NCBI GenBank assembly: GCA_028289445.1 | Contig: JANQPO010000004.1 | Span: 124,001 to 188,000 of the forward strand | Origin: Tepidamorphaceae bacterium | GTDB lineage: Bacteria; Pseudomonadota; Alphaproteobacteria; Rhizobiales; JAKSCL01 | Reading direction: 5' to 3' | DNA: 64,000 bases | Part shown: piece after piece, positions 921-34,801 of the stretch | Numbering within the stretch: position 1 is the first letter of the stretch | Layout of the letters: each line of letters opens with the position of its first letter | The notes under the pieces: model-generated | Seen by the model: the letters and a program-made list of their open reading frames with translations, nothing else | Databases searched by the model: none | What the model was told of the DNA's origin: nothing | Made by a program: the position numbers and the translations under genes

Positions 921-1078
921 GACGAGGCGAACTCGGATTGGGTTTTGCCGACGATCTGTGGCATAGGAAAACCGGACTGTCGACGCAATCCGCCATGACG
1001 GCAAAATTGGCAGATCGCGAGGTTGCCTCATCGCAATGACACACTTACGGCATCCAATCGCCCGGCGGAGATGATGAC

Positions 1079-2974: not shown

Positions 2975-3084
2975 CGATTCCAACAGACCCGATGAAAATT
3001 GCGCCAGAGTGCTCATAAACCATAGCATCAATGTGACGTTTTCGCCTTTGCAGCAATTGGCGACTGTGTTTAACATGGCCCCAA

Positions 3085-3103
3085 ATTCGGCAAATGACCG
3101 AAT
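3085..3103. promoter_or_regulatory. Inverted repeat upstream of the first polyamine ABC operon
   Basis: ATTCGG and CCGAAT form perfect 6-bp arms separated by 7 bp, 30 bp before the ATPase start codon. The placement in the leader of a transport operon fits an operator, but no regulator is adjacent and the arms are short, so chance is possible. Confidence 0.25.
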
Positions 3104-3132
3104 GACAAAGAACCAGAGGGCTTTGGCAGGGC

Positions 3133-4245
3133 ATGGTGGACACGGCAAACGCCGGTAAACCGTTCGTACGTTTCGAAAGCGTGCAAAAGAGTTATGACGG
3201 CGAAATTCTTGTCGTCAAAAACCTCAACCTCGACATCGCTGAAGGCGAATTCTTGACGATGCTCGGGCCGTCCGGTTCGGGCAAGACCACCTGCTTGATG
3301 ATGCTTGCCGGATTCGAGACGGCGACGCATGGCCAGATTTACCTTGGCGATCAACCGATTAACAACGTGCCCCCGCACAAGCGCGGCATCGGAATGGTGT
3401 TCCAGAACTACGCACTGTTTCCGCACATGACGGTTTCGGAGAACCTCGCCTTCCCACTTGAAGTGCGCAAAATGTCGAAGGCCGAGATCGAAAGCCGCGT
3501 TCAGCGCGCCCTCGACATGGTTGAGTTGGGCGCGTTTGGAAGCCGGATGCCAGCTCAATTGTCTGGCGGCCAGCAACAGCGCGTCGCCGTGGCGCGGGCG
3601 TTGGTGTTCGACCCCAAGCTGGTGCTGATGGACGAGCCGCTCGGCGCGCTCGACAAGCAACTGCGCGAGCAGATGCAGTACGAGATCAAGCACATTCATG
3701 AGAACCTCGGCGTCACCGTCGTCTATGTTACGCACGACCAGTCCGAGGCGCTGACGATGTCGGACCGCATCGCGGTCTTCAACGATGGTGTCATTCAGCA
3801 GTTGTCGACGCCCGACGACCTTTACGAGCGCCCGGAAAACTCGTTCGTCGCCCAGTTCATCGGCGAGAACAACAAACTACAGGGAACCATCAAAGGGCGT
3901 GAGAACGGCAACTGCGTTGTCGAACTCGTCAACGGCAAGAGTGTTGAAGCACTCGCGGTGAATGTTGGCGAAAGCAGCGACCGGACAACCCTGTCGATCC
4001 GGCCGGAGCGGGTGGAGATCAACCCACCGGCCGGCAAGGTGCCCAACATTATCGGCGGTAAGATCGAGGAACTGATCTATCTCGGCGACCATATCCGCAC
4101 GCGTATGAGCGTTCCAGGCAATGACGAGTTCATCGTCAAGGTGCCGAACACGGCGGGGCATACCCTGCTGAACGAAGGTGAAACAGCCGAAGTCGGTTGG
4201 GCGACGGAGGACTGCCGGGCGCTCGACCCAATAGACGTTGCGTAA
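3133..4245 (+). CDS. Polyamine-type ABC transporter ATP-binding protein (PotA-like)
   Basis: 370 residues, the usual PotA size. Visible motifs are Walker A GPSGSGKT (about residue 45), Q-loop VFQNYALFPHMT, signature LSGGQQQRVA, Walker B LVLMDEPLGALD, H-loop VYVTHDQ, and a C-terminal TOBE/OB regulatory domain with LSIRPERVEI. It energises import through the two permeases encoded at 5493-7642, using the binding protein at 4323-5423. The family covers spermidine, putrescine, 2-aminoethylphosphonate and Fe(III) importers; the neighbouring genes favour polyamines. First gene of a rightward operon; 77 bp separate it from the binding-protein gene, with a terminator-like hairpin in the gap. Confidence 0.9.
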   Translation: MVDTANAGKPFVRFESVQKSYDGEILVVKNLNLDIAEGEFLTMLGPSGSGKTTCLMMLAGFETATHGQIYLGDQPINNVPPHKRGIGMVFQNYALFPHMTVSENLAFPLEVRKMSKAEIESRVQRALDMVELGAFGSRMPAQLSGGQQQRVAVARALVFDPKLVLMDEPLGALDKQLREQMQYEIKHIHENLGVTVVYVTHDQSEALTMSDRIAVFNDGVIQQLSTPDDLYERPENSFVAQFIGENNKLQGTIKGRENGNCVVELVNGKSVEALAVNVGESSDRTTLSIRPERVEINPPAGKVPNIIGGKIEELIYLGDHIRTRMSVPGNDEFIVKVPNTAGHTLLNEGETAEVGWATEDCRALDPIDVA

Positions 4246-4252
4246 TCCGGCT

Positions 4253-4280
4253 TGCGTCGGAACGTGCCGGACGCATTTTT
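4253..4280 (+). terminator. Hairpin with T-run between ATPase and binding-protein genes
   Basis: TGCGTC (4253-4258) pairs with GACGCA (4270-4275) around an 11-base loop and is followed by five Ts. A second palindrome, CCCGAATTCGGG, lies at 4286-4297. Together they could act as a partial terminator or RNA-processing site that sets binding-protein expression apart from the upstream ATPase gene. The short stem makes full termination doubtful. Confidence 0.4.
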
Positions 4281-4322
4281 GATTCCCCGAATTCGGGAAT
4301 GTTTGAGAGGAGAGAACCAAAA

Positions 4323-5423
4323 ATGAAACTGAGACTGACGACGGTCATGGCCGCCGCGATCGGCGGCTCCATGGCGATCACGGCCGCGAGCGCGACCGAT
4401 TTGACCATCGTATCCTGGGGCGGCGCTTACTCGGCGTCGCAGCAAAAGGCCTACCACGACCCCTTCATGGCCAAGAACCCAGGCGTGCAGATTCTCAACG
4501 ACGAATCCTCGGCTGAGGCCGTCGCCAAGCTCCGCGCCATGAACGAAGCCGGCAACGTGACCTGGGACATCGTTGACGTCGTCGCATCGGACGCGATCCG
4601 GTTGTGCGACGAAGGCCTTGCGATGGAGATCAATCCGGATGAATGGCTCGCCCCGGCGCCCGACGGCACATCGGCCGCGGATGATTTTGGTGACCTACTG
4701 GTCTCCGAGTGCTTCATTCCGCAGATCGTTTATTCGACGACCTTTGGCTATCGCACCGACATGGTCGGCGATAATCCGCCGACGGATATCTGCGCCGTGT
4801 TCGACACAGCCACCTATCCCGGCAAGCGCAGCTTGGAGAAGCGGCCGATCAACAACATGGAATGGGCGCTGATCTGCGATGGTGTCGCGGCCAAGGATGT
4901 CTATGACGTGCTGTCGACCGATGAAGGCGTCGATCGTGCCTTTGCCAAGCTCGACACGATTAAGGACGACGTGATCTGGTGGTCGGCGGGCGCCGAAACG
5001 CCGCAGCGGCTTGCCGACGGCGAGGTCGTCATGGGCTCGACCTATAACGGCCGCCTGTTCTCGGTCATCGAGGAAGAAAAACAGCCGGTCGCCATGCTGT
5101 GGGACTGGCAGGTCTTCGACCTCGACGGCTGGATCATTCCGACCGGCTTGCCGGAAGAGAAGATGCAAGTGATCAAGGACTACATCTTCTTCGCAACCGA
5201 CACGCAGCGGCTCGCCGATCAGGCCAAGTACATCTCCTACGGCCCGGCCCGGCAGTCGTCCGCGCCGCTCGTTGGCCAGCATGCTGAACTCGGCATCGAC
5301 ATGGGTCCGCACATGCCGACCGATCCGAACAACGCCAAGAACACGCTGCTCTACAATTACGAGTGGTGGGCGGACAATCGCGACGATCTGGACGCCAAGT
5401 TCCAGGCTTGGCTGGCGAAGTAA
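4323..5423 (+). CDS. Extracellular polyamine-type substrate-binding protein (PotD-like)
   Basis: 366 residues. A signal peptide (MKLRLTTVMAAAIGGSMA..., cleavage near residue 22, after AASA) precedes the PotD-type core beginning LTIVSWGGAYSASQQKAY. Aromatic stretches such as DVIWWSAGAE and LWDWQVFDLDGW match the binding cleft of periplasmic polyamine or compatible-solute receptors. The start at 4323 is chosen because it follows GAGAGGAGAG and gives an intact signal peptide; an in-frame upstream start would place 42 extra residues before it. It delivers ligand to the permease pair downstream. The ligand (putrescine, spermidine or another cationic amine) cannot be read from sequence alone. Confidence 0.88.
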   Translation: MKLRLTTVMAAAIGGSMAITAASATDLTIVSWGGAYSASQQKAYHDPFMAKNPGVQILNDESSAEAVAKLRAMNEAGNVTWDIVDVVASDAIRLCDEGLAMEINPDEWLAPAPDGTSAADDFGDLLVSECFIPQIVYSTTFGYRTDMVGDNPPTDICAVFDTATYPGKRSLEKRPINNMEWALICDGVAAKDVYDVLSTDEGVDRAFAKLDTIKDDVIWWSAGAETPQRLADGEVVMGSTYNGRLFSVIEEEKQPVAMLWDWQVFDLDGWIIPTGLPEEKMQVIKDYIFFATDTQRLADQAKYISYGPARQSSAPLVGQHAELGIDMGPHMPTDPNNAKNTLLYNYEWWADNRDDLDAKFQAWLAK

Positions 5424-5440
5424 CAGCCTGACGCATCGAT

Positions 5441-5471
5441 CCGTGGGGCGGCTGTGATCGCCGTCCCACGG
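5441..5471 (+). other. Intercistronic stem-loop after the binding-protein gene
   Basis: CCGTGGGGCGGC (5441-5452) pairs with GCCGTCCCACGG (5460-5471), twelve pairs with one G-T wobble, around a 7-base loop. It starts 17 bases after the binding-protein stop codon and ends 21 bases before the permease start. Hairpins at this place commonly block 3' exonucleases, which raises binding-protein mRNA over permease mRNA. There is no T-run, so I call it a stability or processing element. A competing GTG start at 5454 would lie inside the loop, which argues against that start. Confidence 0.6.
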
Positions 5472-5492
5472 AGCGCAACCAAGGACAACGGA

Positions 5493-6782
5493 ATGGCCGA
5501 CATCGCCGCCCAACCGTTTCAGGCCGCAGAACAAGACGGCCCGGTACTGGCGGCTGACGGTCGACCGCTCAAGGCATCGCTAGCACGTGCCTTGCGCAGA
5601 CAACGCCTGCGGGCGTTCATGCTGGTCGCGCCATTGCTTTTCTTCATTCTCATCACGTTCGCGGCACCGATCGCCGATATGCTGTTTCGATCGGTGGAAA
5701 ACCAGATCGTGCCGGATACGTTGCCGCGCACGGTGCTGGCGCTACAAACCTGGAATCCAGATTCCGGCGAACTGCCCTCTGAGGCCGTCTTCGAGGCGAT
5801 GGTCGCGGACTTGAAGGACGCGCGCGAGGCCAAGACCCACACCCGTGTGGGGCAAAGGCTGAACTATGAAAGCCCGGGCATTTCCAGCCTCTTCCGCAAA
5901 TCAGGCCGTGGGGTGCGCCGGATCGAAGAAGGCCCCTACAAGGAAGCGTTGATCGACGTCGACGATGGCTGGGCTGAGATCGACACCTGGCGCACCATCG
6001 CACAGTTCTCCGGGAACTATACGGACGGGTATTTCCTGGCCGCGCTGGACATGGAGCGGACACCGGAAGGCGAGGTCACGATCCTCCCGGACGAGGACCG
6101 CATCTATCTCTTCCTGTTCGGCCGAACCTTCGTGCTGAGCATCATGATTACGCTGTCGACGCTGCTGCTCGGCTACCCGGTGGCCTACCTCTTGGCCACG
6201 CTGCCGTTGCGCACGTCCAACCTCTTGATGATCCTGGTGCTTCTGCCGTTTTGGACATCGCTTCTGGTCCGCACCAGTTCGTGGATCGTCCTCCTTCAGC
6301 AGCAAGGCGTGATCAACGACTTCCTGGTCACGCTCGGATTGATCGCCGACGACAATCGTCTGCAGCTGATCTTCAATCAGACCGGCACGGTCGTTGCGAT
6401 GACCCACATTCTGTTGCCGTTCATGATCCTGCCGCTGTTTTCCGTCATGAAGACGATCCCGCCGAGCTATATGCGAGCGGCGAAGTCCATGGGCGCCAAC
6501 GACTGGACAGCGTTCTGGCGGGTCTACTTCCCGAACACCCTGCCCGGCATCGGCGCCGGCGCCATCCTCGTGTTCATTCTATCGATCGGCTACTACATCA
6601 CGCCGGAACTGGTCGGCGGCACATCCGGCACGTTCATCTCGAACCGGATCGCCTATCACATCTCGTCATCGCTCAATTGGGGTCTGGCAGCCGCGCTCGG
6701 CGTCATCCTGCTTGGCTCGGTACTTCTGCTTTACTGGATCTACGACCGCATCGTCGGCATCGACAACGTGAAACTGGGATAG
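5493..6782 (+). CDS. ABC transporter permease, PotB type with long insertion
   Basis: 429 residues, about 150 more than E. coli PotB. The first membrane helix (about residues 42-66, LVAPLLFFILITFAAPIADML) is followed by a hydrophilic stretch of about 140 residues (68-208) before the remaining helices. The cytoplasmic coupling loop (EAA-like: SYMRAAKSMGANDWTAFWRVYFP) is intact. The start at 5493 follows AAGGA at good spacing. The long inserted segment probably lies in the periplasm and occurs in a subset of alphaproteobacterial PotB-like permeases; its role is unknown. Six bases separate it from the partner permease gene. Confidence 0.87.
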   Translation: MADIAAQPFQAAEQDGPVLAADGRPLKASLARALRRQRLRAFMLVAPLLFFILITFAAPIADMLFRSVENQIVPDTLPRTVLALQTWNPDSGELPSEAVFEAMVADLKDAREAKTHTRVGQRLNYESPGISSLFRKSGRGVRRIEEGPYKEALIDVDDGWAEIDTWRTIAQFSGNYTDGYFLAALDMERTPEGEVTILPDEDRIYLFLFGRTFVLSIMITLSTLLLGYPVAYLLATLPLRTSNLLMILVLLPFWTSLLVRTSSWIVLLQQQGVINDFLVTLGLIADDNRLQLIFNQTGTVVAMTHILLPFMILPLFSVMKTIPPSYMRAAKSMGANDWTAFWRVYFPNTLPGIGAGAILVFILSIGYYITPELVGGTSGTFISNRIAYHISSSLNWGLAAALGVILLGSVLLLYWIYDRIVGIDNVKLG

Positions 6783-6787
6783 CGAGA

Positions 6788-7642
6788 ATGGCCGCCCTTC
6801 CGCCCTATGCCACCCCGCTCCAGCGCACCTGGTACTGGACGTTTCGCGGCATCTGCGTGGCCATCTTCTTCTTCCTGATCTTCCCGATCCTGGTGATCAT
6901 CCCACTGTCGTTCAACGCGGTTCCCTTCTTCACCTTCACGAAGGAAATGCTGAGCTTCGACCCGGCCGGCTATTCGCTGCAGTGGTACGATGACTTCTTC
7001 ACAAATGCGGACTGGAACCACGCGGTATGGAACTCCATCCGCATCTCGATCGCCGCGACGATCCTCTCTACCGGACTCGGCACGGTTGCGGCGATTGGCC
7101 TCTCCCAATCGCACATGCCGTTCAAGGGCGCGATCACGGCCATGTTGATATCGCCGATGATCGTACCGCTGATCATCTCGGCCGCCGGCATGTATTTCTT
7201 CTATTCGCGGATCGGCTTGCAAGGCACCTATATCGGCGTCGTTCTGGCTCACGCGGCACTTGGCACGCCGTTCGTCATCATCACCGTGACCGCGACGCTG
7301 GTTGGCTTTGACAAATCCTTGGTGCGCGCAGCCGCCAATCTTGGCGCCGGTCCGATCCGCACGTTCTGGAAGGTGCAAATGCCGTTGATCCTGCCGGGTG
7401 TCATTTCCGGCGCGCTTTTCGCCTTTATTACGTCGTTCGACGAAGTTGTCGTCGTCCTTTTCGTAGGGTCATCCGGGCAGAAAACTATCCCCTGGCAAAT
7501 GTTCACAGGCCTGCGCGAGCAAATTTCACCGACCATCCTGGCGGTCGCAACGATCCTCGTTCTGATTTCAATCGGGTTGCTGACTGTGCTCGAACTCTTG
7601 CGCCGCCGCTCGGAGAGCTTGAGGGGGATCAGGGCGCAATAG
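6788..7642 (+). CDS. ABC transporter permease, PotC type
   Basis: 284 residues with about six membrane helices and the coupling loop LVRAAANLGAGPIRTFWKVQMP. The start at 6788 (MAALPPYATPLQRTWYW) lies just after the previous stop, so translation is probably coupled; a far longer in-frame extension upstream only overlaps the PotB-like gene and is not real. Forms the transmembrane pore with the preceding permease. Only 11 bases separate it from the DUF1194 gene, so the operon probably continues. Confidence 0.9.
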   Translation: MAALPPYATPLQRTWYWTFRGICVAIFFFLIFPILVIIPLSFNAVPFFTFTKEMLSFDPAGYSLQWYDDFFTNADWNHAVWNSIRISIAATILSTGLGTVAAIGLSQSHMPFKGAITAMLISPMIVPLIISAAGMYFFYSRIGLQGTYIGVVLAHAALGTPFVIITVTATLVGFDKSLVRAAANLGAGPIRTFWKVQMPLILPGVISGALFAFITSFDEVVVVLFVGSSGQKTIPWQMFTGLREQISPTILAVATILVLISIGLLTVLELLRRRSESLRGIRAQ

Positions 7643-7653
7643 CGGGATCCTTC

Positions 7654-8391
7654 ATGCGCCACAGGCGCTTACCTTTTCTGATCGCGATTCTTCTTGCTCT
7701 TTGGCTGCCCGCTGACGGCACGGCTGATGTTCAGTCGGCACAATTGCGCGCTGTCGATCTGAATCTCGTGATCGCCGTCGATTGCTCTTACAGCGTCGAC
7801 ACTGTCGAGTTCGACTTGCAGCGCCACGGGATTGCCGATGCATTCCGCGACCCGGAGGTCCAAAGCGCCATCGCCGACGGACAGCATGGTGCGATTGCGG
7901 TGACCGTCCTGCAATGGTCGTCGCGGCGCAGCCAGATCGTAGCCATTCCCTGGACGGTCGTCAGCGATGCGGTCTCCGCAAACGCGCTGGCCAGCGCAGC
8001 GGTCTCAATGCCCCGCGAAACAGTCGAGGGCGCAACCTCGATCGCTGCGGCAATCGATGCCGCGTCACAATTGCTCGCCGAGAGTCCCCATCCTGCGAGT
8101 CGCCATGTCATCGACGTTCAAGCGGACGGGACGAACAATAACGGTCCCGTTGTCGACGACGCCCGCGACCGGGCGTTGGCGCAGGGCATAACGATCAACG
8201 GGCTGACCATCATCAATGAAATCTCGTGGCTGCACTTTTACTTTCGCAACCACGTCATCGGCGGACCCGGTGCCTTCGTCGAAATCGCCAATGATTACAA
8301 AGCCTACGGGCGAGCGATAAAGCGCAAATTGCTGCGGGAGATCGCCCCACCCTTCGTCGCTGACCGACAGCCCGACAACCAAAGAGGCTAG
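7654..8391 (+). CDS. Secreted DUF1194 (von Willebrand A-like) protein
   Basis: 245 residues: signal peptide at about 1-24 (FLIAILLALWLPADGTAD), then a vWA-like fold opening with VDLNLVIAVDCSYSVD. DCSYS has the DxSxS form of a metal-ion-dependent adhesion site, and VDVQADGTNNNGP fits the later family motif. The family has no assigned function. It follows the PotC-like permease by 11 bases and is probably cotranscribed with it. Its TAG stop (8389-8391) lies in an 18-bp palindrome that also supplies the stop of the convergent permease gene. Confidence 0.85.
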   Translation: MRHRRLPFLIAILLALWLPADGTADVQSAQLRAVDLNLVIAVDCSYSVDTVEFDLQRHGIADAFRDPEVQSAIADGQHGAIAVTVLQWSSRRSQIVAIPWTVVSDAVSANALASAAVSMPRETVEGATSIAAAIDAASQLLAESPHPASRHVIDVQADGTNNNGPVVDDARDRALAQGITINGLTIINEISWLHFYFRNHVIGGPGAFVEIANDYKAYGRAIKRKLLREIAPPFVADRQPDNQRG

Positions 8392-8405
8392 GGTCGGGAC
8401 CCTAG
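8388..8405. repeat. Perfect palindrome CTAGGGTCGGGACCCTAG spanning two stop codons
   Basis: CTAGGGTC-GG-GACCCTAG holds the TAG stop of the rightward DUF1194 gene (8389-8391) and the TAG stop of the leftward PotI gene (complement of 8402-8404). The inner 16 bp are repeated exactly at 26206-26221. No T-run follows on either side, so a simple intrinsic terminator is unlikely. The TA-GGGTC ends match the right end of the 34799-35068 element. Confidence 0.75.
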
Positions 8406-9223
8406 GCTTCCGCTACCGCCAAGCGCTCCGCGCGCTGACGCTCCATCTCCTGACGCTTGGTGATTAGGGACGCGGCGACGACCCCGGTGGTGACAATGCC
8501 GATCAAGATCGTGCACACGGCGTTGATCTCCGGCGTCACGCCGAGCCGAACCTGGCTGTAGATTTTCATCGGCAGGGTCGTGGCGCCTGGACCTGTGGTG
8601 AACGAGGCGATCACCAGATCGTCGAGCGAGAGCGTAAACGCCAGCATCCAGCCCGAGATCACCGCCGGCAGGATCATCGGCAGCGTAATCTGGAAAAACG
8701 TCTTCAGCGGCGGGCAACCGAGGTCGAGCGCGGCCTCCTCGACCGAGCGGTCGAAGGTGACGAGCCGCGATTGCACGACGACGGCGACGAAACACATGGA
8801 AAAGGTGATGTGTGCGATTAACACCGTCCAGAAGCCGCGGGCGAAGTTCATCGCCACGAACAGCAGCAGCAATGACAAGCCGGTGATTACTTCCGGCATC
8901 ACCAACGGCGCGTAGATCATGCCGGAAAAGAGCGTGCGGCCTGGAAAGCGGCCGGCTCGGATCAGCACGATGGCCGCCATCGTGCCGAGAACGGTGGCTA
9001 CCGTTGCCGACACAAAGGCAACGCGCACGGTGACCCAGGCCGCATCGAGCAGGCCCTGGTTCTGGAACAGCGCCACATACCATTTGGTCGAGAAACCGGC
9101 CCAGACGGTGACAAGCCGCGACTCGTTGAAGGAATAGACGACCAGGATAACGATCGGCAGATAGAGAAAGGCGAAGCCGGCGGTCACCGACGCAACATTG
9201 AACCAGGTCGGTCCGCGATTCAT
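8402..9223 (-). CDS. potI: Putrescine-type ABC transporter permease (PotI-like)
   Basis: 273 residues, six predicted helices, PotC/PotI-type coupling loop VEEAALDLGCPPLKTFFQITLP. The start at 9223 (MNRGPTWFNV) overlaps the agmatinase stop as ATGA, so translation is coupled. It is the last gene of a leftward operon in the order potF-potG-potH-agmatinase-potI, which matches E. coli potFGHI apart from the inserted agmatinase gene. By context a putrescine-type importer; the ligand is inferred. Confidence 0.87.
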   Translation of the reverse strand: MNRGPTWFNVASVTAGFAFLYLPIVILVVYSFNESRLVTVWAGFSTKWYVALFQNQGLLDAAWVTVRVAFVSATVATVLGTMAAIVLIRAGRFPGRTLFSGMIYAPLVMPEVITGLSLLLLFVAMNFARGFWTVLIAHITFSMCFVAVVVQSRLVTFDRSVEEAALDLGCPPLKTFFQITLPMILPAVISGWMLAFTLSLDDLVIASFTTGPGATTLPMKIYSQVRLGVTPEINAVCTILIGIVTTGVVAASLITKRQEMERQRAERLAVAEA

Positions 9224-10149
9224 GACGCCAACTCCTGGGATTCGACAAGCGCCAGATAGTCCCAAGCCACCGTCGCAGCCGCCAGCGCTGTGATCTCGGC
9301 ATGATCGAAGGCTGGCGCCACTTCCACGACATCGCCGCCAACGAAGTCGACGCCGCCGAGCCGACGGATAATGGCGCGCGCTTGCCAGGCGTGGAGACCG
9401 CCCATTTCCGGCGTGCCCGTGCCCGGCGCAAAGGCCGGGTCCAAGCCATCGACATCGAAGGTGAAGTAGCTGGCTCCGTCGCCCAAAACATCGCGAACCT
9501 TCGCCGCGACCGCGTCGGGCGTCGACAGGTGCACATCCTCGGCGCTCATGATCGAGATCCCCATCGCCTTCGTCTCATCCATGATCGATGTCTCGGCGGG
9601 AGAGCGAATGCCGATCTGAATCGTCCGTTTGGGATCGAGAATGTCGTCCCTGACGGCATGATAGAAGGGCGTACCGTGGGCGAGGCTTTGCCCGAAATTG
9701 GTGTGCCACGTGTCCACATGGGCGTCGAACTGCACCATGCCGAGCGGGCCGTGACGTTCGGCCAGAATACGCAGCAAGGGCAGCGTCATGGAATGCTCGC
9801 CGCCAATGGCGAAGAGATGGTTCAGGCCGCGCGCCTGTGCTTCGATCATGCGGTGGGTTTCGGCGATGTCGCCGATGCGCACATCGAAATTACCGATATC
9901 GGAGGCCGGAAAGCCGATCGGATCGACACCGTGAAACGGGTGATCGCCATCGAACATCATGCGGCTGGCGAGCCGCACCGCGTTCGGACCCTCACGCGTG
10001 CCGGCCCGATTGGTGGTGGCGAAGTCGACCGGAATGCCGGCGATACAGTATTTCGCCTCCCGATTGCCAACGGGAAAGTCGATGAAACTGAGACCGCGCG
10101 CGAAGGTCGGCAGGTCGTAATTGGCTTCGCCGGCGGTCCCCTGGCTCAT
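9220..10149 (-). CDS. speB: Agmatinase / ureohydrolase-family enzyme
   Basis: 309 residues, typical ureohydrolase length. The binuclear manganese motifs are GGEHS, DAHVDTWH and FDVDGLDP, all intact, followed by GGDVVEVAP. Agmatinase converts agmatine to putrescine and urea; relatives act on guanidinobutyrate or guanidinopropionate and cannot be told apart by eye. It overlaps potH upstream and potI downstream by ATGA junctions, so it is translationally built into the importer operon. That suggests the importer takes up a guanidino compound or polyamine which this enzyme then processes in the cytoplasm. Start at 10149 (MSQGTAGE). Confidence 0.85.
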   Translation of the reverse strand: MSQGTAGEANYDLPTFARGLSFIDFPVGNREAKYCIAGIPVDFATTNRAGTREGPNAVRLASRMMFDGDHPFHGVDPIGFPASDIGNFDVRIGDIAETHRMIEAQARGLNHLFAIGGEHSMTLPLLRILAERHGPLGMVQFDAHVDTWHTNFGQSLAHGTPFYHAVRDDILDPKRTIQIGIRSPAETSIMDETKAMGISIMSAEDVHLSTPDAVAAKVRDVLGDGASYFTFDVDGLDPAFAPGTGTPEMGGLHAWQARAIIRRLGGVDFVGGDVVEVAPAFDHAEITALAAATVAWDYLALVESQELAS

Positions 10150-11051
10150 CCGGCCTCCCTTTCCTGCTGCCGCTGCTGGTGCATCTGGAAGAGGACGATC
10201 GGTACGATCAAAACGAGAAGCAACAGCACAGCGACGGCAGAAGACACCGGCCAATCGCGGTTGGAGAAGAACTCGACCCACAGCGTCTTGCCGATCATCA
10301 GCGTCTCCGATCCGCCGAGCAGATCGGGGATGACGAACTCGCCGACGGCCGGAATGAAGACCAGGAAACACCCGGCGACGATGCCCGGCAACGACAACGG
10401 CACGGTGACGACCCAGAACGCCTTGATCGGTGTGCACCCCAGGTCTTGGGCCGCTTCAAGCAGCGAGCCGTCGAGCTTCTCAAGCGCCGAATAAAGCGGC
10501 AGCACCATGAAGGGCAGATAGGAGTATACGATGCCGATATAGACCGCTGTATTGGTGTTCAAGATCGTCAATGGCTCATCGATGACGCCGAGCGAGATCA
10601 GCGCCAGATTGAGCAGACCCTCCTTCTTCAAGATGCCGATCCAGGCATAGACGCGAATGAGGAATGACGTCCAAAACGGCAGGATCACCAGCATCAGCAG
10701 CGTCGGGCGCCAGGCCGTGGGCGCCCGCGCCATGCCGTAAGCGATCGGATAGCCGACCATCAGCGTGATGATCGTCGAGACGGACGCGATCCAAAGGCTG
10801 GAGAGATAGGAGCGGATATAGAGGTCGTCTTCGGTCAGCCAGGCGTAATTGTCGAAGGACAGCCTGGCGAACGCCGCCTTGAAGGCCTCCCAGCCTTCCG
10901 ACAGATCGAAGACTGGGAGATAGGGCGGCATGGCGATCGCCGTCTCGGAGAACGAGATCTTGAAGACGATGACGAACGGAACGAGGAAGAAGACCAGGAG
11001 CCAGAGATAGGGCACCAGGATGAGAAGGATGCGGCCGAGCCTGCCTTCCAT
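10146..11051 (-). CDS. potH: Putrescine-type ABC transporter permease (PotH-like)
   Basis: 301 residues. After MEGRLGRILLILVPYLWLLVF, six helices and the coupling loop LLEAAQDLGCTPIKAFWVVTVP are visible, as in PotB/PotH. It partners with the PotI-like permease encoded one gene downstream. The gene sits 9 bases after the ATPase gene and overlaps the agmatinase start by four bases. Confidence 0.88.
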   Translation of the reverse strand: MEGRLGRILLILVPYLWLLVFFLVPFVIVFKISFSETAIAMPPYLPVFDLSEGWEAFKAAFARLSFDNYAWLTEDDLYIRSYLSSLWIASVSTIITLMVGYPIAYGMARAPTAWRPTLLMLVILPFWTSFLIRVYAWIGILKKEGLLNLALISLGVIDEPLTILNTNTAVYIGIVYSYLPFMVLPLYSALEKLDGSLLEAAQDLGCTPIKAFWVVTVPLSLPGIVAGCFLVFIPAVGEFVIPDLLGGSETLMIGKTLWVEFFSNRDWPVSSAVAVLLLLVLIVPIVLFQMHQQRQQEREAG

Positions 11052-11060
11052 CTCGCGCCC

Positions 11061-12200
11061 CTAGTCCAACAACACGACGGCGGCGTCCGGCGCGAAGGTT
11101 AGGCTGATGTCGTCCTCCCAGGTGATCGGCCGCTCGATCAGCCGGGTGACATTGGTCTGCGACGCCTTGACGATCGCGCCCGACGGCAGCTTGACGTGAT
11201 AGATCGACAGATCGCCGAGATAGGCGATATCCCAGACCTCGCCGTCGATCTGGTTCTGCGACACGCCGGAAATCACCTGCATTTTCTCGGGCCGGATGGC
11301 GATATAGGCGGGCGTACCCGGGATCGCGTCCATCGCCTGATGAACGACCAACGTCCCGGCGTCCTCCGTCTCAAGCGTCACGGCGCCGTTTGCCGTGCTC
11401 TTGATCGTGCCCTTGATGATGTTGATGTCGCCGATGAAGTCGGCGACGTAGCGCGAGTTCGGATACTCGTACATCTCCGCCGGCGTCGCCACTTGAACGA
11501 AGACACCGTGGTCCATCACGGCGATGCGGTCCGACACCGTCATCGCCTCTTCCTGATCGTGGGTGACGATCATGAAGGTGAGGCCGAGATTCTCTTGGAT
11601 ATCCATAAGCTCGAACTGCGTTTCTTCGCGCAGCTTCTTGTCGAGCGCCCCGAGCGGTTCGTCGAGGAGGAGCACTTTCGGCCGTTTCGCCAGCGACCGG
11701 GCAAGCGCCACGCGCTGACGCTGGCCGCCTGAGAGTTGGTGCGGCTTGCGTCCGGCAAACTGCTCCAGCTTCACCAACCGCAGCATGTCGGCAACGCGTT
11801 CCTCGATCTCCGGCTTCGGCATCTTGTCCTGCTTCAGTCCGAACGCGATGTTGTCGGCGACCGACATGTGCGGGAAGAGCGCATAGGACTGGAACATCAT
11901 GTTGACCGGCCGCCGATAGGGCGGAATGGTCGAGATATCCTGACCATCGAGCAGGATACGGCCTTCCGTCGGTGTCTCGAAGCCGGCGAGCATCCGCAAG
12001 AGCGTTGTCTTGCCGCAGCCGGACGGCCCGAGCAGGGAGAAGAACTCCCGCTCGTAGACGTTCAGAGAAACGTTGTTGACGGCGACAAAGTCACCGAAGC
12101 GCTTCGTGACATTGTCGAAGACGATGAACGGCTCCGCCGAGGGATCGGACCACGGCGCGAAGGTCTTGCGGCTTGCGCTGGCGGGCTGGCGATCCGCCAT
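11061..12200 (-). CDS. potG: Putrescine-type ABC transporter ATP-binding protein (PotG-like)
   Basis: 379 residues from the ATG at 12200; a TTG six bases upstream is a possible alternative. Motifs: Walker A GPSGCGKTTLLRM, Q-loop MMFQSYALFPHMS, signature [10 protein letters not shown], Walker B LLLDEPLGALD, switch IVTHDQEEAM, and a C-terminal TOBE domain with IAIRPEKMQV. It is distinct from the PotA-like ATPase at 3133. It energises the PotH/PotI permease pair, with the PotF-like receptor encoded 37 bases upstream. Confidence 0.9.
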   Translation of the reverse strand: MADRQPASASRKTFAPWSDPSAEPFIVFDNVTKRFGDFVAVNNVSLNVYEREFFSLLGPSGCGKTTLLRMLAGFETPTEGRILLDGQDISTIPPYRRPVNMMFQSYALFPHMSVADNIAFGLKQDKMPKPEIEERVADMLRLVKLEQFAGRKPHQLSGGQRQRVALARSLAKRPKVLLLDEPLGALDKKLREETQFELMDIQENLGLTFMIVTHDQEEAMTVSDRIAVMDHGVFVQVATPAEMYEYPNSRYVADFIGDINIIKGTIKSTANGAVTLETEDAGTLVVHQAMDAIPGTPAYIAIRPEKMQVISGVSQNQIDGEVWDIAYLGDLSIYHVKLPSGAIVKASQTNVTRLIERPITWEDDISLTFAPDAAVVLLD

Positions 12201-12237
12201 GGTCAAGCCCGTCTCCCCAGCGCCTCCCGGTCCACCG

Positions 12238-13332
12238 TCAGCTACCGCTCTTCACCCGGGTCCAGGCGCGCGTCACGATCCGCTGCACCTTGGGCGGATA
12301 GGCGGTTGTGGTGTAGAGCTTCTCCGTCGTCGCCGCGTCCGGATAGATCGCCGTGTCGCCGATGACGTCGTCGTTCAAAAGCGACTGCGATGCCTGATTG
12401 CCGTTGGCATAGTAGACATAGTTCGATGCCTTGGCGGCGACTTCCGGGCGCATGATGTAGTCGATGAAGGTGTGAGCCTCTTCGACATTCTTGGCGTCCG
12501 CCGGGATCGCCATCTGGTCGAACCACATCAACGCGCCTTCCTTCGGGATGGCATATTCGACCGTCACGTTATTGTCGGCCTCAGCGGCTCGGTCGCGGGC
12601 CTGGAGCACATCGCCGGACCAGCCGACGGCCACGCAGATATCGCCATTGGCGAGTGCGTTGATGTACTCGGACGAGTGAAACTTCTGAATGTGCGGCCGC
12701 ACACCCATCAGCAGGTCGGCCGCTTTGCCGATCAGGTCCGTGTCGTGGGAATCGGGATCCTCGCCCAGGTAGTTGAGCGCGGCGGGGATGAGTTCGGCCG
12801 GCGCGTCAAGGAAGTGGACGCCACAGGCGGCGAGCTTTTCCATGTTTTCCGGCTTAAACACCAGGTCCCAGGAATCGACAGGCGCGTCGTCGCCGAGCGC
12901 TTCCTTGACCTTGTCGACATTGTAGCCGATGCCGGTCGTGCCCCACATATAATTGATCGAATGCTGGTTCTCAGGGTCGTACTTCTGCACCCGCTCGGCG
13001 ATGGCGTCCCACATGTTCGACAGATTGCCGAGCTTGCCCTTGTCCAGCGCCATGAACACACCGGCCTGGATCTGTCGCGACAGGAACGTGCCCGACGGCA
13101 CGACAACGTCATAGCCGGTCGATCCGGCGAGCAACTTCGTTTCCAGGATTTCGTTGGAATCGAAGACGTCGTAGACGACCTTGATGCCGGTTTCTTCCGT
13201 GAACTCCGAAAGAATGTCCTCGTCGATATAGTCCGACCAGTTGTAGACGTTGACGACGCGGTCCTGAGCCAAAGCCGGTCCTGCCAACAGCGCGGCGGTG
13301 ACGAATGCGCTTGCGAAATGTTTGAACGCCAT
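12238..13332 (-). CDS. potF: Putrescine-type periplasmic binding protein (PotF-like)
   Basis: 364 residues. Signal peptide MAFKHFASAFVTAALLAGPA with cleavage after ALA, followed by the PotF/PotD hallmark RVVNVYNWSDYIDEDIL and later VVPSGTFLSRQIQAG. First gene of the leftward importer operon. The start at 13332 gives a clean signal peptide; an in-frame extension upstream has no coding character. Compared with the receptor at 4323 it is much closer to E. coli PotF, so the two importers probably differ in ligand. Confidence 0.9.
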   Translation of the reverse strand: MAFKHFASAFVTAALLAGPALAQDRVVNVYNWSDYIDEDILSEFTEETGIKVVYDVFDSNEILETKLLAGSTGYDVVVPSGTFLSRQIQAGVFMALDKGKLGNLSNMWDAIAERVQKYDPENQHSINYMWGTTGIGYNVDKVKEALGDDAPVDSWDLVFKPENMEKLAACGVHFLDAPAELIPAALNYLGEDPDSHDTDLIGKAADLLMGVRPHIQKFHSSEYINALANGDICVAVGWSGDVLQARDRAAEADNNVTVEYAIPKEGALMWFDQMAIPADAKNVEEAHTFIDYIMRPEVAAKASNYVYYANGNQASQSLLNDDVIGDTAIYPDAATTEKLYTTTAYPPKVQRIVTRAWTRVKSGS

Positions 13333-13389
13333 CGATAAAAGCCCCTCTATCCTGCGGACCGAAAATCGCCCGCCCGTTCTTTGTCTTGT

Positions 13390-13420
13390 CCGCCTTGTGA
13401 GCGGAGCGCTCGCAAGGCGG
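13390..13420. promoter_or_regulatory. Long stem-loop in the leader of the PotF-type operon
   Basis: CCGCCTTGTGAGCG (13390-13403) pairs with CGCTCGCAAGGCGG (13407-13420), fourteen pairs with one wobble, around a 3-base loop. The hairpin lies 57 bases upstream of the potF start codon. On the plus strand it is followed by GTTTT but no rightward gene precedes it; on the minus strand no T-run follows. It may end GFA-gene transcripts inefficiently or shape the potF leader. Confidence 0.45.
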
Positions 13421-13487
13421 GTTTTCGTCATTAAAGACGGGGAGATAGCGGCAATGCAACAGGATTCATGAGGCCGTTCGGGCAATC

Positions 13488-13898
13488 TCAGTCAGAGGGC
13501 GGCGGCATCTCCGGGAAGTTCGGAATGCTTGACGACGGTGGGTCCCAGGCCGGTGCGCGGCTGGCGTAGACCGACATGGCTGGCGTAAAGGCGCTTGGAT
13601 CATCGAGGCTGGATGCGCGAACGAAGACCAGGCCAGGGAATCCCGAATTCTTCGAATAGACCGCTCCGCCACATGTCGGACAGAACCCGCGGCTCACCAC
13701 ATTGCCGCTGTCGGCCGGCTTATCGAAGAACCGCACATCGCCTGTGATTGAAAACTCGTCTTCCGAGACGCCCATGTGCGAGCAATGTCCCGTACCGCTC
13801 GATTTGCGGCAATCCAGACAATGGCAGTCACCCCCAAACCGCTGTTCACCGGATTCATAGCGCACCGCGCCGCAAAGACATCCGCCCGTGATCGTCAT
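13488..13898 (-). CDS. GFA-family zinc-binding protein
   Basis: 136 residues. Cysteines in GGCLCGAVRYE (C7, C9), DCHCLDCRKSSG and GFCPTCGGAVY match the zinc-binding pattern of the GFA (glutathione-dependent formaldehyde-activating) fold. Most members have no proven formaldehyde activity and are best called CENP-V/GFA-domain proteins. The start at 13898 lies at good distance from GGGTGG; an adjacent ATG at 13901 is nearly as plausible. It is divergent from an HxlR regulator, with direct repeats in the shared 80-bp promoter region, so it is probably the regulator's target. Confidence 0.85.
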   Translation of the reverse strand: MTITGGCLCGAVRYESGEQRFGGDCHCLDCRKSSGTGHCSHMGVSEDEFSITGDVRFFDKPADSGNVVSRGFCPTCGGAVYSKNSGFPGLVFVRASSLDDPSAFTPAMSVYASRAPAWDPPSSSIPNFPEMPPPSD

Positions 13899-13920
13899 CA
13901 TTCCACCCTTTTTACTTGTG

Positions 13921-13964
13921 ATTTGCAAGCAATCTACGGCAAACCATTGCAATTTGCAAGCGAT
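13921..13964. promoter_or_regulatory. Direct-repeat operator candidate for the HxlR regulator
   Basis: ATTTGCAAGCAAT at 13921-13933 and ATTTGCAAGCGAT at 13952-13964 agree at 12 of 13 positions and start 31 bp apart, close to three helical turns. A third TTGCAA lies at 13947. They sit between the divergent GFA and HxlR genes. HxlR proteins bind paired sites as dimers, so this is a plausible shared operator; it is inferred from placement only. Confidence 0.5.
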
Positions 13965-13980
13965 TTTGCCACACCAAGCC

Positions 13981-14400
13981 ATGCCTCCTGACAAACGCCC
14001 GCGCCGTTCCAACTGTCCGATCAGCTACGCCACCGATATTTTCGGCGACGCGTGGACGCTTTTGGTTCTGCGCGATCTCCTCCTCTTCAACCGCCGGCAT
14101 TTCAGCGAGCTTCAAGGCATGGAAGAAGGAATCGCCACCAATATCCTGGCCGACCGGCTCAAACGGTTGGAGGCCTATGGCGTGGTCGTTCGCGAGCCGG
14201 ACCCCAAGGACGGGCGTAAGACGGTGTACAGGCCGACGGACACAGGCATCGCGCTCATTCCCATCCTCCTGGAGATCAGCGCCTGGAGCCTAGAGTCCGG
14301 CGCCGTCCAGGCTGGCCCGCCCGATTTCTGCGAACGGTTCCGTGCCAATCGCGACGCCGTGATCGCGGAGTTCGCCGGCCGTCACGATGAGGCGGACTAA
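13981..14400 (+). CDS. HxlR-family winged-helix transcriptional regulator
   Basis: 139 residues from the ATG at 13981. The HxlR signature is clear: NCPISYATDIFGDAWTLLVL, then HFSELQGMEEGIATNILADR and LKRLEAYGVVVREPDPKDGR, the winged helix-turn-helix. An early cysteine (NCPI) is where redox- or aldehyde-sensing members of the family keep their sensor cysteine. The start has no obvious ribosome site, so the mRNA may be leaderless. It is divergent from the GFA gene, and its last four bases overlap the end of the convergent glutamine-synthetase-like gene. Confidence 0.87.
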   Translation: MPPDKRPRRSNCPISYATDIFGDAWTLLVLRDLLLFNRRHFSELQGMEEGIATNILADRLKRLEAYGVVVREPDPKDGRKTVYRPTDTGIALIPILLEISAWSLESGAVQAGPPDFCERFRANRDAVIAEFAGRHDEAD

Positions 14401-15761
14401 AGATAGGTTTCGCGTTCCAGACCGGAAATCTCGCGACCGAAGGCCGTTAGCTCCACGTGCTTGATCGCGGACAGGACTTTGTGCAGTTCGGGGCCAACGG
14501 CGTCGCGCATTGCTTCGGAGCGTTCGAACGCTTCAATCGCCTCGTCCATCCACGGCGATAGCGTCGCCATATCCCCGTTATAGGCATTGCCGACGACGGG
14601 CGGTGGCGGATCGGCCTTTCGTTCCAGACCTCGCATCATGCCGGCTAACACGCCGATCAAGACGAGATAAGGGTTAGCGTCGGCGCCGGCGATGCGGTGT
14701 TCGACGCGGCGGGCCTGCTCGCTGGCTGTCGGGATTCGAAGCGCGACCGAGCGATTGTCATAGCCCCAGCACACCGATGTTGGCGCATAGGACCCCGGCT
14801 GGAGCCGCCTGAACCCGTTAAACGTCGAGATGAACAGGACGAGTGCCTCGGGCATGGTGTCGAGCAGCCCTGAAACGGCGTGGCCGAGCCGCCCCTCGCC
14901 CTCCTTACCGGCAAAGATGTTACCGTCCTTGCCGGTCAAACTGACATGGACATGCATGCCGTTGCCCGGCCAGTCGACGAAGGGCTTGGCCATGAAACTG
15001 GCGATCAGCCCGCGCTTGCGCGCCAAACCGATGACCAGCCGGCGCAAGAGCGCTGCGTCATCGGCCGCTCTTAGCGCATCCGCACGATAATGGAGATTCA
15101 CTTCGAACTGGCCGGGTGCGGCCTCCGACACGGCGGCATCGGCCGCAATCCCTTGCGCCTCGGCGCCGCGCCTGATGTCGTCGATCAGCGGCATCAACGC
15201 TTCCAGTTCCGACAGCGCATACATGTTCTGCCGCTCCGGCCCGCGCGGACTGGCGAACACCGGCTTGGGCGGCGCGCCGGCCTTGCCGGCCTTCTCAAGC
15301 AGGTAGAACTCAAGCTCGAAGGCAGCGTTAGCCGTCAGCCCCTTGTCGGCCAGCCGGTCGATCATTCGGGCGAGGCTAACCCGTGGATCGACGGGAAACG
15401 ATGCGCCGTCCGGCGTCGTCATCGACAACAGCAGCTGCGCCGTCTTCCGCTCGGCGAACGGGACGAGCGTCAGCGTGTCGTCGACCGGCCAACACACGCC
15501 GTCCTTGTCGCCGGACTCGATGTGCAGCCCGGTCTCTTCGACCTCGCGGCCCCAGACGTCGAGCCCGAAAAGGGAATAGGGAAAGGCGACGCCGTTGGCA
15601 TAGACTTTCTCCAGCGCCGCACCGGGCAGCCACTTCCCCCGCAGGATGCCGTTGGTGTCCGGCACGATAACTTCCAGCGTGTCGAGATCGCGGTGTTCGG
15701 CGGCAAAGGCACGCACGGCTTCGGGCACGGGCAGGGACAGGGGTTCTGGCGGGATCGTCAT
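14397..15761 (-). CDS. Glutamine-synthetase-like gamma-glutamylpolyamine synthetase
   Basis: 454 residues. Class-III GS-like landmarks: early substrate-loop segment DTNGILRGKWLPGAALEKV, FELEFYLLEK with metal ligands, NGMHVHVSLTGKDGN, and RVEHRIAGADANPYLVL. This branch contains PuuA-type enzymes that join glutamate to putrescine or other amines using ATP; canonical ammonia-assimilating GS is different in its N-terminus and lacks this context. The ATG at 15761 is used because the longer frame runs into the 271-bp repeat element. It is divergent from a second paralogue at 16159. Which amine each uses cannot be decided by sequence. Confidence 0.82.
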   Translation of the reverse strand: MTIPPEPLSLPVPEAVRAFAAEHRDLDTLEVIVPDTNGILRGKWLPGAALEKVYANGVAFPYSLFGLDVWGREVEETGLHIESGDKDGVCWPVDDTLTLVPFAERKTAQLLLSMTTPDGASFPVDPRVSLARMIDRLADKGLTANAAFELEFYLLEKAGKAGAPPKPVFASPRGPERQNMYALSELEALMPLIDDIRRGAEAQGIAADAAVSEAAPGQFEVNLHYRADALRAADDAALLRRLVIGLARKRGLIASFMAKPFVDWPGNGMHVHVSLTGKDGNIFAGKEGEGRLGHAVSGLLDTMPEALVLFISTFNGFRRLQPGSYAPTSVCWGYDNRSVALRIPTASEQARRVEHRIAGADANPYLVLIGVLAGMMRGLERKADPPPPVVGNAYNGDMATLSPWMDEAIEAFERSEAMRDAVGPELHKVLSAIKHVELTAFGREISGLERETYL

Positions 15762-15840
15762 TGTTCTTGCTTCACTCTTAAGTCGTTCGAACCCATAGCC
15801 GAATTTCAACCGCTTGGGCAGGGGCCGATTGACAAGCCCC

Positions 15841-16111
15841 AAGGCTGTATCGACATACATGATTTGGAGCGTGGTATGAGCGAAAATCGGTCAGTTCAAG
15901 GCGCGAAGCCGCCGACAGGGCGGCTCCCTTTCAAGGCTTCGCAACGCCGAAATGGCCGATTGTCGCCATACCGCCGTGCGGCGCGGCGGATTTTGCCCCT
16001 GACCGCGTTGCAAGGACTTGAAAGCCAGCCAGGCTTCCGGCGGCCTTGCGCCTTGTCAGGGGTAAAATCCGACACGCGCCACGCCCGAAACCTGAATGTT
16101 GATACAGCCTA
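15841..16111. repeat. Terminal-inverted-repeat element, copy 1 (MITE-like)
   Basis: Left end GGCTGTATCGACATACATG (from 15843) matches the reversed right end GGCTGTATCAACATTCAGG (ending 16109) at 16 of 19 positions. The right end is flanked by TA inside CTAG. The centre is a long palindrome: 15981-16003 pairs with 16055-16079. The length (271 bp) and core match copy 2 at 34799-35068. It fills most of the 397-bp gap (15762-16158) between the two divergent synthetase genes; a 7-bp hairpin AGCCGCC/GGCGGCT also lies at 15907-15925. No coding sequence is supported in the gap, and the remaining flanks (15762-15840 and 16112-16158) must hold both promoters. Confidence 0.7.
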
Positions 16112-16158
16112 GGCCGGCGCGGTAGATTGTCGCGGCAAACCATGCACCGAAGGCTCCC

Positions 16159-17556
16159 ATGACTGACACCCAGGATCGCGCGGCAGCGCTCGCCAATTTG
16201 CGCGGCGTGGCGACGATCGATGACGCCCGCGACTGGCTGTCGGCGCGTGGCATCGAAGACATCGAGTGCATCACGCCGGACATTGCCGGCGTGGCGCGCG
16301 GCAAGATGATGCCGGCTCGCAAGTTTACCGGGTCGAGCCGGCTGGCCCTGCCCTCATCCATCTTCTTGCAGACGATCTCGGGCGAGTATCCGCCAGAGTC
16401 GGACACATTTCATTATCAGCCCCATGACGGGGACCTACGGTTGGTCCCGGATCTGTCCACGCTCTCGCGCGTGCCATGGGAATCCGATCCGACCGCCCAG
16501 GTGATCTGCGATGTCGTCGACAATGACGGCGATCCGGTCACCTACACGCCGCGCAATGTGTTGCGTGCTGTTTTGGCGCTCTATGCGGCCAAGGGCTGGC
16601 GACCGGTCGTCGCGCCCGAGATCGAGTTCTACCTGGTCGCCACCAACACCGATCCCGACTATCCGCTCGAACCGCCGATCGGCCGGTCGGGGCGCACCAT
16701 CGCCGGCGGCCAGTCCTATTCGATTGCCGGCGTCAACGAGTTCGACGAACTGATTGACGATATCTACGATTTCTCCGAGGCGCAGGGTCTGGAGATCGAC
16801 ACGCTCATCCATGAGGAAGGCACCGCCCAGCTTGAAATCAATCTGCGTCATGGCGACCCGGTCGAACTGGCCGATCAGGTTTTCATGTTCAAACGGACCA
16901 TCCGCGAGGCGGCGCTCAAACACGCGATGTATGCCACGTTCATGGCCAAGCCGATCCAGGATCAACCCGGATCGGCCATGCACTTGCACCAGTCGGTGAT
17001 CGACATCGGCAGCGACGACAACATTTTTTCCGAGCAGGATGGCGGGGAATCTGCCGCCTTTCACCATTTCATCGGCGGCATGCAGCGCTACCTGCCGAAG
17101 GCGTTCTGTATGATGGCGCCCTATGTGAATTCCTATCGCCGCCTGATGCGTGGCGCGACCGCGCCGATCAACGTTCACTGGGGATACGACAATCGCACGA
17201 CCGGCCTTCGCGTGCCGGAAGGCACCCCGGCCGAGCGCCGCGTCGAGAACCGCGTTCCGTCGTCCGACGCCAACCCTTATCTGGCGATGGCGGCGTCTCT
17301 TGCCTGCGGCTATCTCGGGCTGACGGAAAAAATCGCGCCGCAGAAGGCCATCGACACGACCGCCAATTTCGGCACGATTGATCTGCCGCGCGGCCTGCTT
17401 GAGGCCATCGCGCTGTTCGAAGGCGAGCCGGCGCTTCGCACCGTGCTGGACGAAACCTTCATCGGCAATTATGCCGGGATCAAGAAAGCCGAATTCGAAA
17501 CCTTCATGCAGGTCATCTCGCCCTGGGAGCGGGAATTCCTGCTTCTGAATGTCTAA
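16159..17556 (+). CDS. puuA: Glutamine-synthetase-like gamma-glutamylputrescine synthetase
   Basis: 465 residues. Motifs: CITPDIAGVARGKMMPARKF, APEIEFYLV, QLEINLRHGDPVELAD, GSAMHLHQSVIDI, NVHWGYDNRTTGLRVP, RVENRVPSSDANPYLAMA. The expected metal and ATP residues of the class are present. The first enzyme of the gamma-glutamylated putrescine pathway makes gamma-glutamylputrescine from glutamate, putrescine and ATP. It leads a rightward operon (two LysE exporters, aminotransferase, PuuB-like oxidase), which supports the assignment. It is only distantly similar to the divergent paralogue at 14397-15761. Confidence 0.87.
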   Translation: MTDTQDRAAALANLRGVATIDDARDWLSARGIEDIECITPDIAGVARGKMMPARKFTGSSRLALPSSIFLQTISGEYPPESDTFHYQPHDGDLRLVPDLSTLSRVPWESDPTAQVICDVVDNDGDPVTYTPRNVLRAVLALYAAKGWRPVVAPEIEFYLVATNTDPDYPLEPPIGRSGRTIAGGQSYSIAGVNEFDELIDDIYDFSEAQGLEIDTLIHEEGTAQLEINLRHGDPVELADQVFMFKRTIREAALKHAMYATFMAKPIQDQPGSAMHLHQSVIDIGSDDNIFSEQDGGESAAFHHFIGGMQRYLPKAFCMMAPYVNSYRRLMRGATAPINVHWGYDNRTTGLRVPEGTPAERRVENRVPSSDANPYLAMAASLACGYLGLTEKIAPQKAIDTTANFGTIDLPRGLLEAIALFEGEPALRTVLDETFIGNYAGIKKAEFETFMQVISPWEREFLLLNV

Positions 17557-34033: not shown

Positions 34034-34801
34034 ATGGAACCGAGTACCATCTTCCCGGACCTGAAAGACAAATCCGTGTTCATCACCGGCGGCGGATCGG
34101 GGATCGGCGCCTATCTGACCGACGGGTTCCTCAAACAAGGCGCCAGGGTCGCATTCGTTGGCCAAAATCCGGAAACCAATGCCGCCCACTGCGACGCGAT
34201 GGAGAAAAAGCATGGGCAGCGCCCGTTGTTCATCCAGTGCGATATTCGCGACATCCCTGCGCTTCAGGCGGCGATTGGCGAAGCGGCAGCACAACAGGGT
34301 GACATCCAGGTTCTGGTCAACAACGCCGCCAACGACACCCGCCACACGCTCATGGACTACGCCCCCGACGACTGGGACGACACCATGAACATCAACCTGC
34401 GACCGCACTTCTTCACGGCACAGGCCGTGGCGCCGGGCATGAAGGCAATGGGCGGCGGAGCAATCGTCAACTACTCCTCGATTTCCTATCTTCTCGCCAA
34501 TCCCGAATATCCAGCCTATGGCACTGCCAAGGCCGCGATCGTGGGTCTAACCCGCCTGCTCGCCAACGAACTTGGCCCCGACAACATCCGCGTGAACTGC
34601 ATCCTGCCGGGCTGGGTGATGACAGAGCGCCAGAAGCGGCTGTGGGTCACGGATGAGGGCATAGAGGCGACGTTGAAGGGCCAAGCACTCAAAGAGCTTA
34701 TTCAGCCCGAAGATATGATCGGCCCCTGCCTGTTTCTCGCCTCCGACGCCGCGCGGATGATGACCGCGCAAACGATGATCGTCGACGCGGGTTGGGTCTA
34801 G
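34034..34801 (+). CDS. Galactose/aldose 1-dehydrogenase-like SDR
   Basis: 255 residues. Rossmann motif ITGGGSGIGAYLTDGFL, LVNNAAND, catalytic Ser in NYSSISYLL and YxxxK in YPAYGTAKAAIVG. The sequence DAGWV at the end is typical. Similar SDRs oxidise D-galactose, L-arabinose or D-fucose to the lactone; by context it makes galactonolactone for the De Ley-Doudoroff route. Its TAG stop (34799-34801) lies in the CTAG that borders the repeat element copy 2. Confidence 0.78.
   Translation: MEPSTIFPDLKDKSVFITGGGSGIGAYLTDGFLKQGARVAFVGQNPETNAAHCDAMEKKHGQRPLFIQCDIRDIPALQAAIGEAAAQQGDIQVLVNNAANDTRHTLMDYAPDDWDDTMNINLRPHFFTAQAVAPGMKAMGGGAIVNYSSISYLLANPEYPAYGTAKAAIVGLTRLLANELGPDNIRVNCILPGWVMTERQKRLWVTDEGIEATLKGQALKELIQPEDMIGPCLFLASDAARMMTAQTMIVDAGWV

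Follow-up and report, generated by a model that had tools for sequence, protein, structure and literature searches.

Two sequences in the window, the 64,000-nucleotide stretch of DNA from a Tepidamorphaceae bacterium that we analyzed, are full-length members of one element family. We consider it highly probable that this family is a widespread, non-autonomous element of about 270 bp that carries IS5/IS427-type ends, inserts at TA within YTAR, and keeps a T-shaped fold through compensatory change.

Two full-length copies in the window

Both copies are full-length, T-shaped MITEs that read on the forward strand. Copy 1, a member of subfamily B, spans positions 15843–16109 and matches our covariance model (R1, model positions 1–273) with 220.8 bits (E = 3.2e-67). 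Copy 2, from subfamily A, spans 34801–35066 and scores 268 bits (E = 8.9e-82). Compared to dinucleotide shuffles, their folds have z scores of −11.5 and −7.1, respectively, and the two copies have in common a core that is 85% identical over 100 bp. An earlier note had described two non-coding stretches here with 19-bp terminal inverted repeats, CTAG/TA borders, no transposase, and a common core of about 100 bp. Direct reading, the shared core, and the covariance-model E values (3e-67 and 9e-82) bear out this architecture and its location, and these E values, together with the fold z scores, and the further copies in the genome described below, place the matches well above chance. The repeats are longer than was claimed, however: at either end, the outer stem extends over about 30 bp, and the region between the ends holds not only the common core but also two long palindromic arms.

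Copy 1 is bordered on the right by TA (16110–16111), which by direct reading lies in CTAG, and on the left by AA (15841–15842). Across 89 copies of the family, the first base of the left dinucleotide is T in 85% and the second is A in 99%, so AA is a mutated TA, as had been supposed. The terminal inverted repeat of this copy is 29 nt long and 79% complementary. Our alignment (A1) and consensus structure place the outer stem at 15842–15873 on the 5′ side, which includes the left terminal inverted repeat and a subterminal part, and at 16080–16110 on the 3′ side. The consensus structure and the single-sequence fold assign arm 1 to 15878–15968 (structure columns 39–135). The consensus structure also positions a mini-hairpin at the three-way junction (15973–15980; columns 140–147) and arm 2 (15981–16079), which contains the conserved motif GCGTTGCAAG..CTTGAAA / TTCC..CTTGCGCCTTG. 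Copy 1 is intergenic and separates two divergent glutamine-synthetase-like genes (14397–17556; both PF00120). Neither gene reaches an NCBIfam equivalog cut-off, and they are perhaps glutamylamide-type synthetase paralogs.

In copy 2, the left TA (34799–34800) forms, with position 34801, the TAG stop codon of an SDR gene (34034–34801), and the right TA (35067–35068) is read directly within CTAG. The outer stem, placed by the same alignment and consensus structure, occupies 34800–34830 and 35037–35067. Fold and consensus structure together define arm 1 (34834–34927), in which CAGATG lies opposite CAGATG to give a tandem G.A mismatch, and arm 2 (34938–35036); the junction mini-hairpin (34930–34937) comes from the consensus structure. 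This copy lies between the SDR gene and a 2-keto-3-deoxygalactonokinase gene, both on the same strand. Because TA is duplicated, its insertion would spare the SDR stop codon.

We searched the genome from which the window derives (3.95 Mb, 26 contigs) by blastn and found about ten full-length copies along with remnants. The further copies on which the earlier note had made its reading depend are thus clearly present. The subfamily of copy 2 has six full-length members in the whole genome, including copy 2 itself. Four are intact and two are split at contig ends (C5, C8, C9, and C16), as the assembly broke inside the repeat. This subfamily further comprises a 104-bp derivative with an internal deletion (C3:164886-164989) and an isolated end (C18:103366). 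Copy 1 has a relative (74%) on contig C15, and two elements on C10 and C3 make up a third subfamily.

The element is a three-armed fold maintained by compensatory changes

Every copy folds into a T, in which the terminal repeats form an outer stem of about 30 bp that is joined by two long arms and the mini-hairpin. Relative to shuffled sequences, the stability of the fold ranges from z = −7.1 to z = −12.4. When 16 copies were analyzed with RNAalifold, 63 of the 87 predicted pairs had compensatory (two-sided) changes. In the consensus structure, 93.9% of cells are paired, compared to 74% in shuffles and 31–41% when the structure is slid along the alignment, and none of 500 shuffles equaled the structure in any measure, covariation included. 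The two ends of the same copy are 0.90 identical over about 21 positions versus 0.55 between copies (permutation p < 5e-5). The three-armed shape is far better conserved than the sequence. The earlier note had overlooked both this co-variation of the two ends within each copy and the folding of the entire element into a single palindromic, three-armed shape that is conserved phylum-wide.

Some positions depart from pairing. Only 20–30% of copies have Watson-Crick pairs at the tandem G.A loop of arm 1, and the sequence at the tip of arm 2 ranks with the most conserved parts of the element (92 copies). A C.C mismatch in arm 2 also appears conserved, but depends on the pairing register and carries no weight in our argument.

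The family extends across Proteobacteria

Using the covariance model, we detected full-length copies of the element in 70 of the 297 Hyphomicrobiales genomes sampled, which represent 44 of 118 genera. It was also present in 24 of 387 genomes sampled at class level and 36 of 397 sampled at phylum level, 18 of the latter outside the class. The matches nearly always span model positions 1–273. The family therefore reaches Alpha-, Beta-, and Gammaproteobacteria. Named carriers include Rhizobium sp. SSA_523, Terrarubrum flagellatum, Shimia sp. R9_2, Comamonas odontotermitis, and Azotobacter chroococcum; among named genomes, the closest carrier is a Tepidamorphaceae MAG, and one copy also occurs in a Shimia isolate. 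In T. flagellatum, an unannotated copy (L199 1482-1754; NZ_CP091854.1) lies inside the sarcosine oxidase operon, where it separates the beta gene from the delta gene.

Length varies little. Of 92 copies with a median pairwise identity of 49%, 91 are 266–272 bp long, and nearly all copies sampled outside Alphaproteobacteria also fall within this range, with end sequences that are quite different (for example, TATACCCATCCCACTTCAAGATGC). One genome outside the class (G735; L224-L253) contained 38 matches to a single end type, mostly 265-bp pairs plus shorter derivatives. As none of 60 family members had such matches, these copies look like a recent burst. Among the 38 ends, no IS-sized pair that could mark an autonomous element was found within the loci. 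E. coli genomes had no match to another copy from outside the class (L202). A search for plasmid relatives of copy 2 found none at E 1e-5; with copy 1, the same search returned Terrarubrum and Rhizobium.

Our search, which covered the open-access literature, found no description of this family of parasitic DNA elements. It is apparently large and undescribed, although MITEs as such are known. Among known repeats, the bacterial MITEs with foldable transcripts (ERIC, Correia/NEMIS, RUP, YPAL/RU-2, and QMITE) are likewise short and mobile, form a stable stem-loop from the whole element, and in several cases have TA termini (PMC2229807, PMC10969869). These repeats are reported from a few genera and are defined by sequence, whereas our family is a three-way T of fixed length that is found phylum-wide. 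In contrast to ERIC-type MITEs, its sequence and even its terminal repeats change while the T is kept. MITEPye1 of Paracoccus yeei, at 159 bp and with IS1182-type ends (PMC11578231), is another MITE of Alphaproteobacteria. It too has ends like those of a resident IS and can fold into a long stem, but it differs in IS family, length, and fold and comes from one species.

A further comparison is with the CcrM-associated intergenic repeats (CIR) of Caulobacter and Brucella, of which our family could be a form. CIRs likewise have two long inverted repeats that form two arms, as well as TA termini and an alphaproteobacterial range (PMC2229807). They measure about 110 bp, however, are devoid of terminal inverted repeats, and have GANTC at an arm loop, whereas our elements are 266–272 bp long and have strong terminal repeats. 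GANTC is below expectation in our family (63 observed, 92 expected) and is mostly in the terminal repeats rather than the arm loops. We rejected identity with CIRs, as the GANTC test failed; this origin is very improbable.

The element inserts at YTAR and shares ends with IS5-type insertion sequences

The element targets YTAR, and TA is duplicated on insertion. Aligned at their borders, 89 copies give the profile YTA[GGG...CCC]TAR, and when we searched with joined flanks, congeners had empty sites with a single target. One such site reads ATC-TA-GGA in genome G040, compared to ATT-TA[element]TA-GGA in G079; another reads ATT-TA-ACC in both G079 and G114 and is occupied in G144. The empty sites that the earlier note had hoped to see in relatives thus exist, with a single-copy TA. 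Together with the narrow length range, the lack of a transposase, the multiple copies, and the terminal inverted repeats, these sites fit the definition of a MITE. The further copies, empty sites, and TA duplication also agree with the earlier description of a non-autonomous MITE-like family without transposase that resides at TA in CTAG-type sites.

Several carrier genomes contain IS5-type DUF4096 elements of about 823–873 bp; we found DUF4096 transposases in carriers G015, G061, G078, and G145. Most of the IS ends match MITE ends at 14–20 of 20 bases, compared to a maximum of about 10.3 for shuffled ends (p ≤ 0.014 for most tested ends). An IS427-like IS lies exactly at the MITE border in three of the five copies in G145 (L074, L081, and L084) and once in G079 (L129), and these IS427-like partners share the YTAR target with the MITE. 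Such IS-MITE tandem arrangements could mobilize together. These matches of ends and targets suggest that the MITEs use a transposase supplied by IS5-type insertion sequences.

We assigned the partners to IS427 on the basis of DUF4096, length, ends, and target. The IS427 elements captured in Paracoccus are 832–865 bp long and mostly make 2-bp duplications (PMC3281130), and the partner ISs fit this group in length and duplication. The IS427 group of the IS5 family resembles our MITE in its terminal repeats, which are up to 20/20 identical, in TA duplication within YTAR, and in its insertion sites (PMC3281130), and differs in that the MITE lacks a transposase and has only the ends in common. The IS interiors showed no homology to the MITE beyond the ends, and we found no autonomous element that shares more than the ends. 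With nothing but the ends in common, the MITE did not arise by simple internal deletion from the ISs we observed. At L079 (1-1658; G015:C422), an IS5-type transposase gene and an upstream open frame of 203 aa lie between matching ends 1.66 kb apart. This may be an IS that carries a passenger gene; its left end falls at the very start of the contig and was excluded as an IS end because it may be foreign to this IS.

The earlier note had favored an IS630-type partner, and an IS630/Tc1-type MITE would indeed be compatible with the TA duplication and the terminal inverted repeats. The match of the ends to IS5-family, IS427-like DUF4096 elements argues against this, as do the YTAR preference and the insertion of these ISs at MITE borders, and an IS630/Tc1 origin now seems barely credible. 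The note had also suggested looking for a full-length IS with the same ends. IS427-like elements with matching ends are present in other Alphaproteobacteria, but in the window's genome, searches with PF13340 and PF01609 detected neither a DUF4096 nor a DDE_Tnp_1 transposase, so the copies there look stranded. We found no IS partner for copies outside Alphaproteobacteria. As the ends of the gamma- and betaproteobacterial copies differ strongly and lack such a partner, the IS5 link is shown for Alphaproteobacteria only.

Pairing seems to be kept at the level of DNA

One explanation for the compensatory changes is that the element is primarily a structured RNA. The transcribed T would then act in mRNAs as a stabilizer, a processing element, or a terminator, mobility would merely spread it, and the compensatory changes would reflect selection on RNA. 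Strong covariation is consistent with this explanation, as are the conserved internal loops (the tandem G.A, with a Watson-Crick fraction of 0.2–0.3, and the arm-2 tip), which simple homogenization should erase. Copies in operons, such as the one in Terrarubrum and probably copy 2 between its same-strand genes, would be transcribed, and ERIC, NEMIS, and QMITE RNAs provide a precedent (PMC2229807, PMC10969869).

If the element were selected as RNA from one strand, G-U intermediates should exceed A-C intermediates on that strand. Arm 1 taken alone has such an excess (85 G-U and 39 A-C cells), but the outer stem has 58 and 55 and arm 2 has 46 and 73. Because G-U and A-C mismatches are equally frequent overall, pairing seems to be kept at the DNA level. 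Folding energy did not consistently favor either strand: the more stable strand can be either one, and the covariance model matches both. There was also no match to an Rfam family above the gathering score in the window or in 12 loci. We rejected RNA selected on one strand, since there is no consistent energy difference between strands and G-U is close to A-C overall. The broader explanation, a primarily structured RNA, is unlikely.

Equal G-U and A-C counts are compatible both with selection for a DNA hairpin and with pure template switching. Between copies of 80–99.9% identity, two-sided changes occur at about 4–9 times the frequency expected if the sides changed independently. This excess fits copying from arm to arm by template switching, a process documented to create and maintain hairpins (PMC8794818). 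In one orthologous pair, L120 (G302) versus L124 (G194), L124 contains a cluster of changes covering 6 nt on one side of arm 1. The cluster resembles a template-switch or conversion event, which is suggestive only, as the two occupied orthologous pairs (L120/L124 and L128/L178) are too few to judge whether compensatory changes arise in a single step.

Taken to its limit, template switching could perfect any long palindrome, and the pairing would then be a mutational by-product of a fold without function. The strand symmetry favors this possibility, as does the fact that double changes are in excess already between copies that are at least 95% identical. However, the length of 266–272 bp, the fold, the junction mini-hairpin, and the arm-2 motif are all kept across the phylum, and specific mismatches are conserved within otherwise paired arms. 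We regard this explanation as doubtful, if somewhat less so than a primarily structured RNA. Since certain mismatches, such as the arm-1 G.A loop, persist and the arm-2 tip is conserved, pure homogenization is insufficient. We infer DNA-level pairing, with selection acting in addition on some unpaired motifs.

Ends and core are loosely coupled modules

In sequence comparisons, the ends and the core act as separate modules. Their coupling is loose (r = 0.56): some copies have ends that are 0.95 identical and cores that are 0.42 identical, while others have cores that are 0.77 and ends that are 0.52 identical. Differing end types occur among the MITEs and the IS5-type elements alike.

We propose a mechanism that joins these observations. 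An IS5/IS427-type transposase would bind the ends of the element in trans and move it. The fold would be maintained as a DNA hairpin or cruciform, in part by template switching or conversion between arms and in part because unpaired arm motifs are under selection. Insertion of an IS at the border may supply a new end on one side, and the palindromic outer stem may then copy this end onto the other side. Because the arms copy each other, the element can acquire a new end on both sides. It could in this way pass from one transposase to the next and still retain its core.

MITEs are usually viewed as short-lived by-products of one IS that are confined to a few species. The architecture described here is phylum-wide, with one fixed length and fold spanning Alpha-, Beta-, and Gammaproteobacteria while the terminal repeats match different IS types. 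Tentatively, and with less than even confidence, we suggest that what is conserved and selected in these elements may be a DNA strand folded into three arms, not a sequence, and that they may form a class of mobile DNA spanning the phylum. Their ends would be interchangeable and re-matched to the transposases of the host, with copying between arms restoring the match at the opposite end, and the lineage would outlive each partner. If this is true, changing from one transposase to another allows a non-autonomous element to persist. Moreover, compensatory changes, which are normally read as proof of a functional RNA, could arise at the DNA level in a mobile element, which would call for caution in covariation-based RNA discovery.
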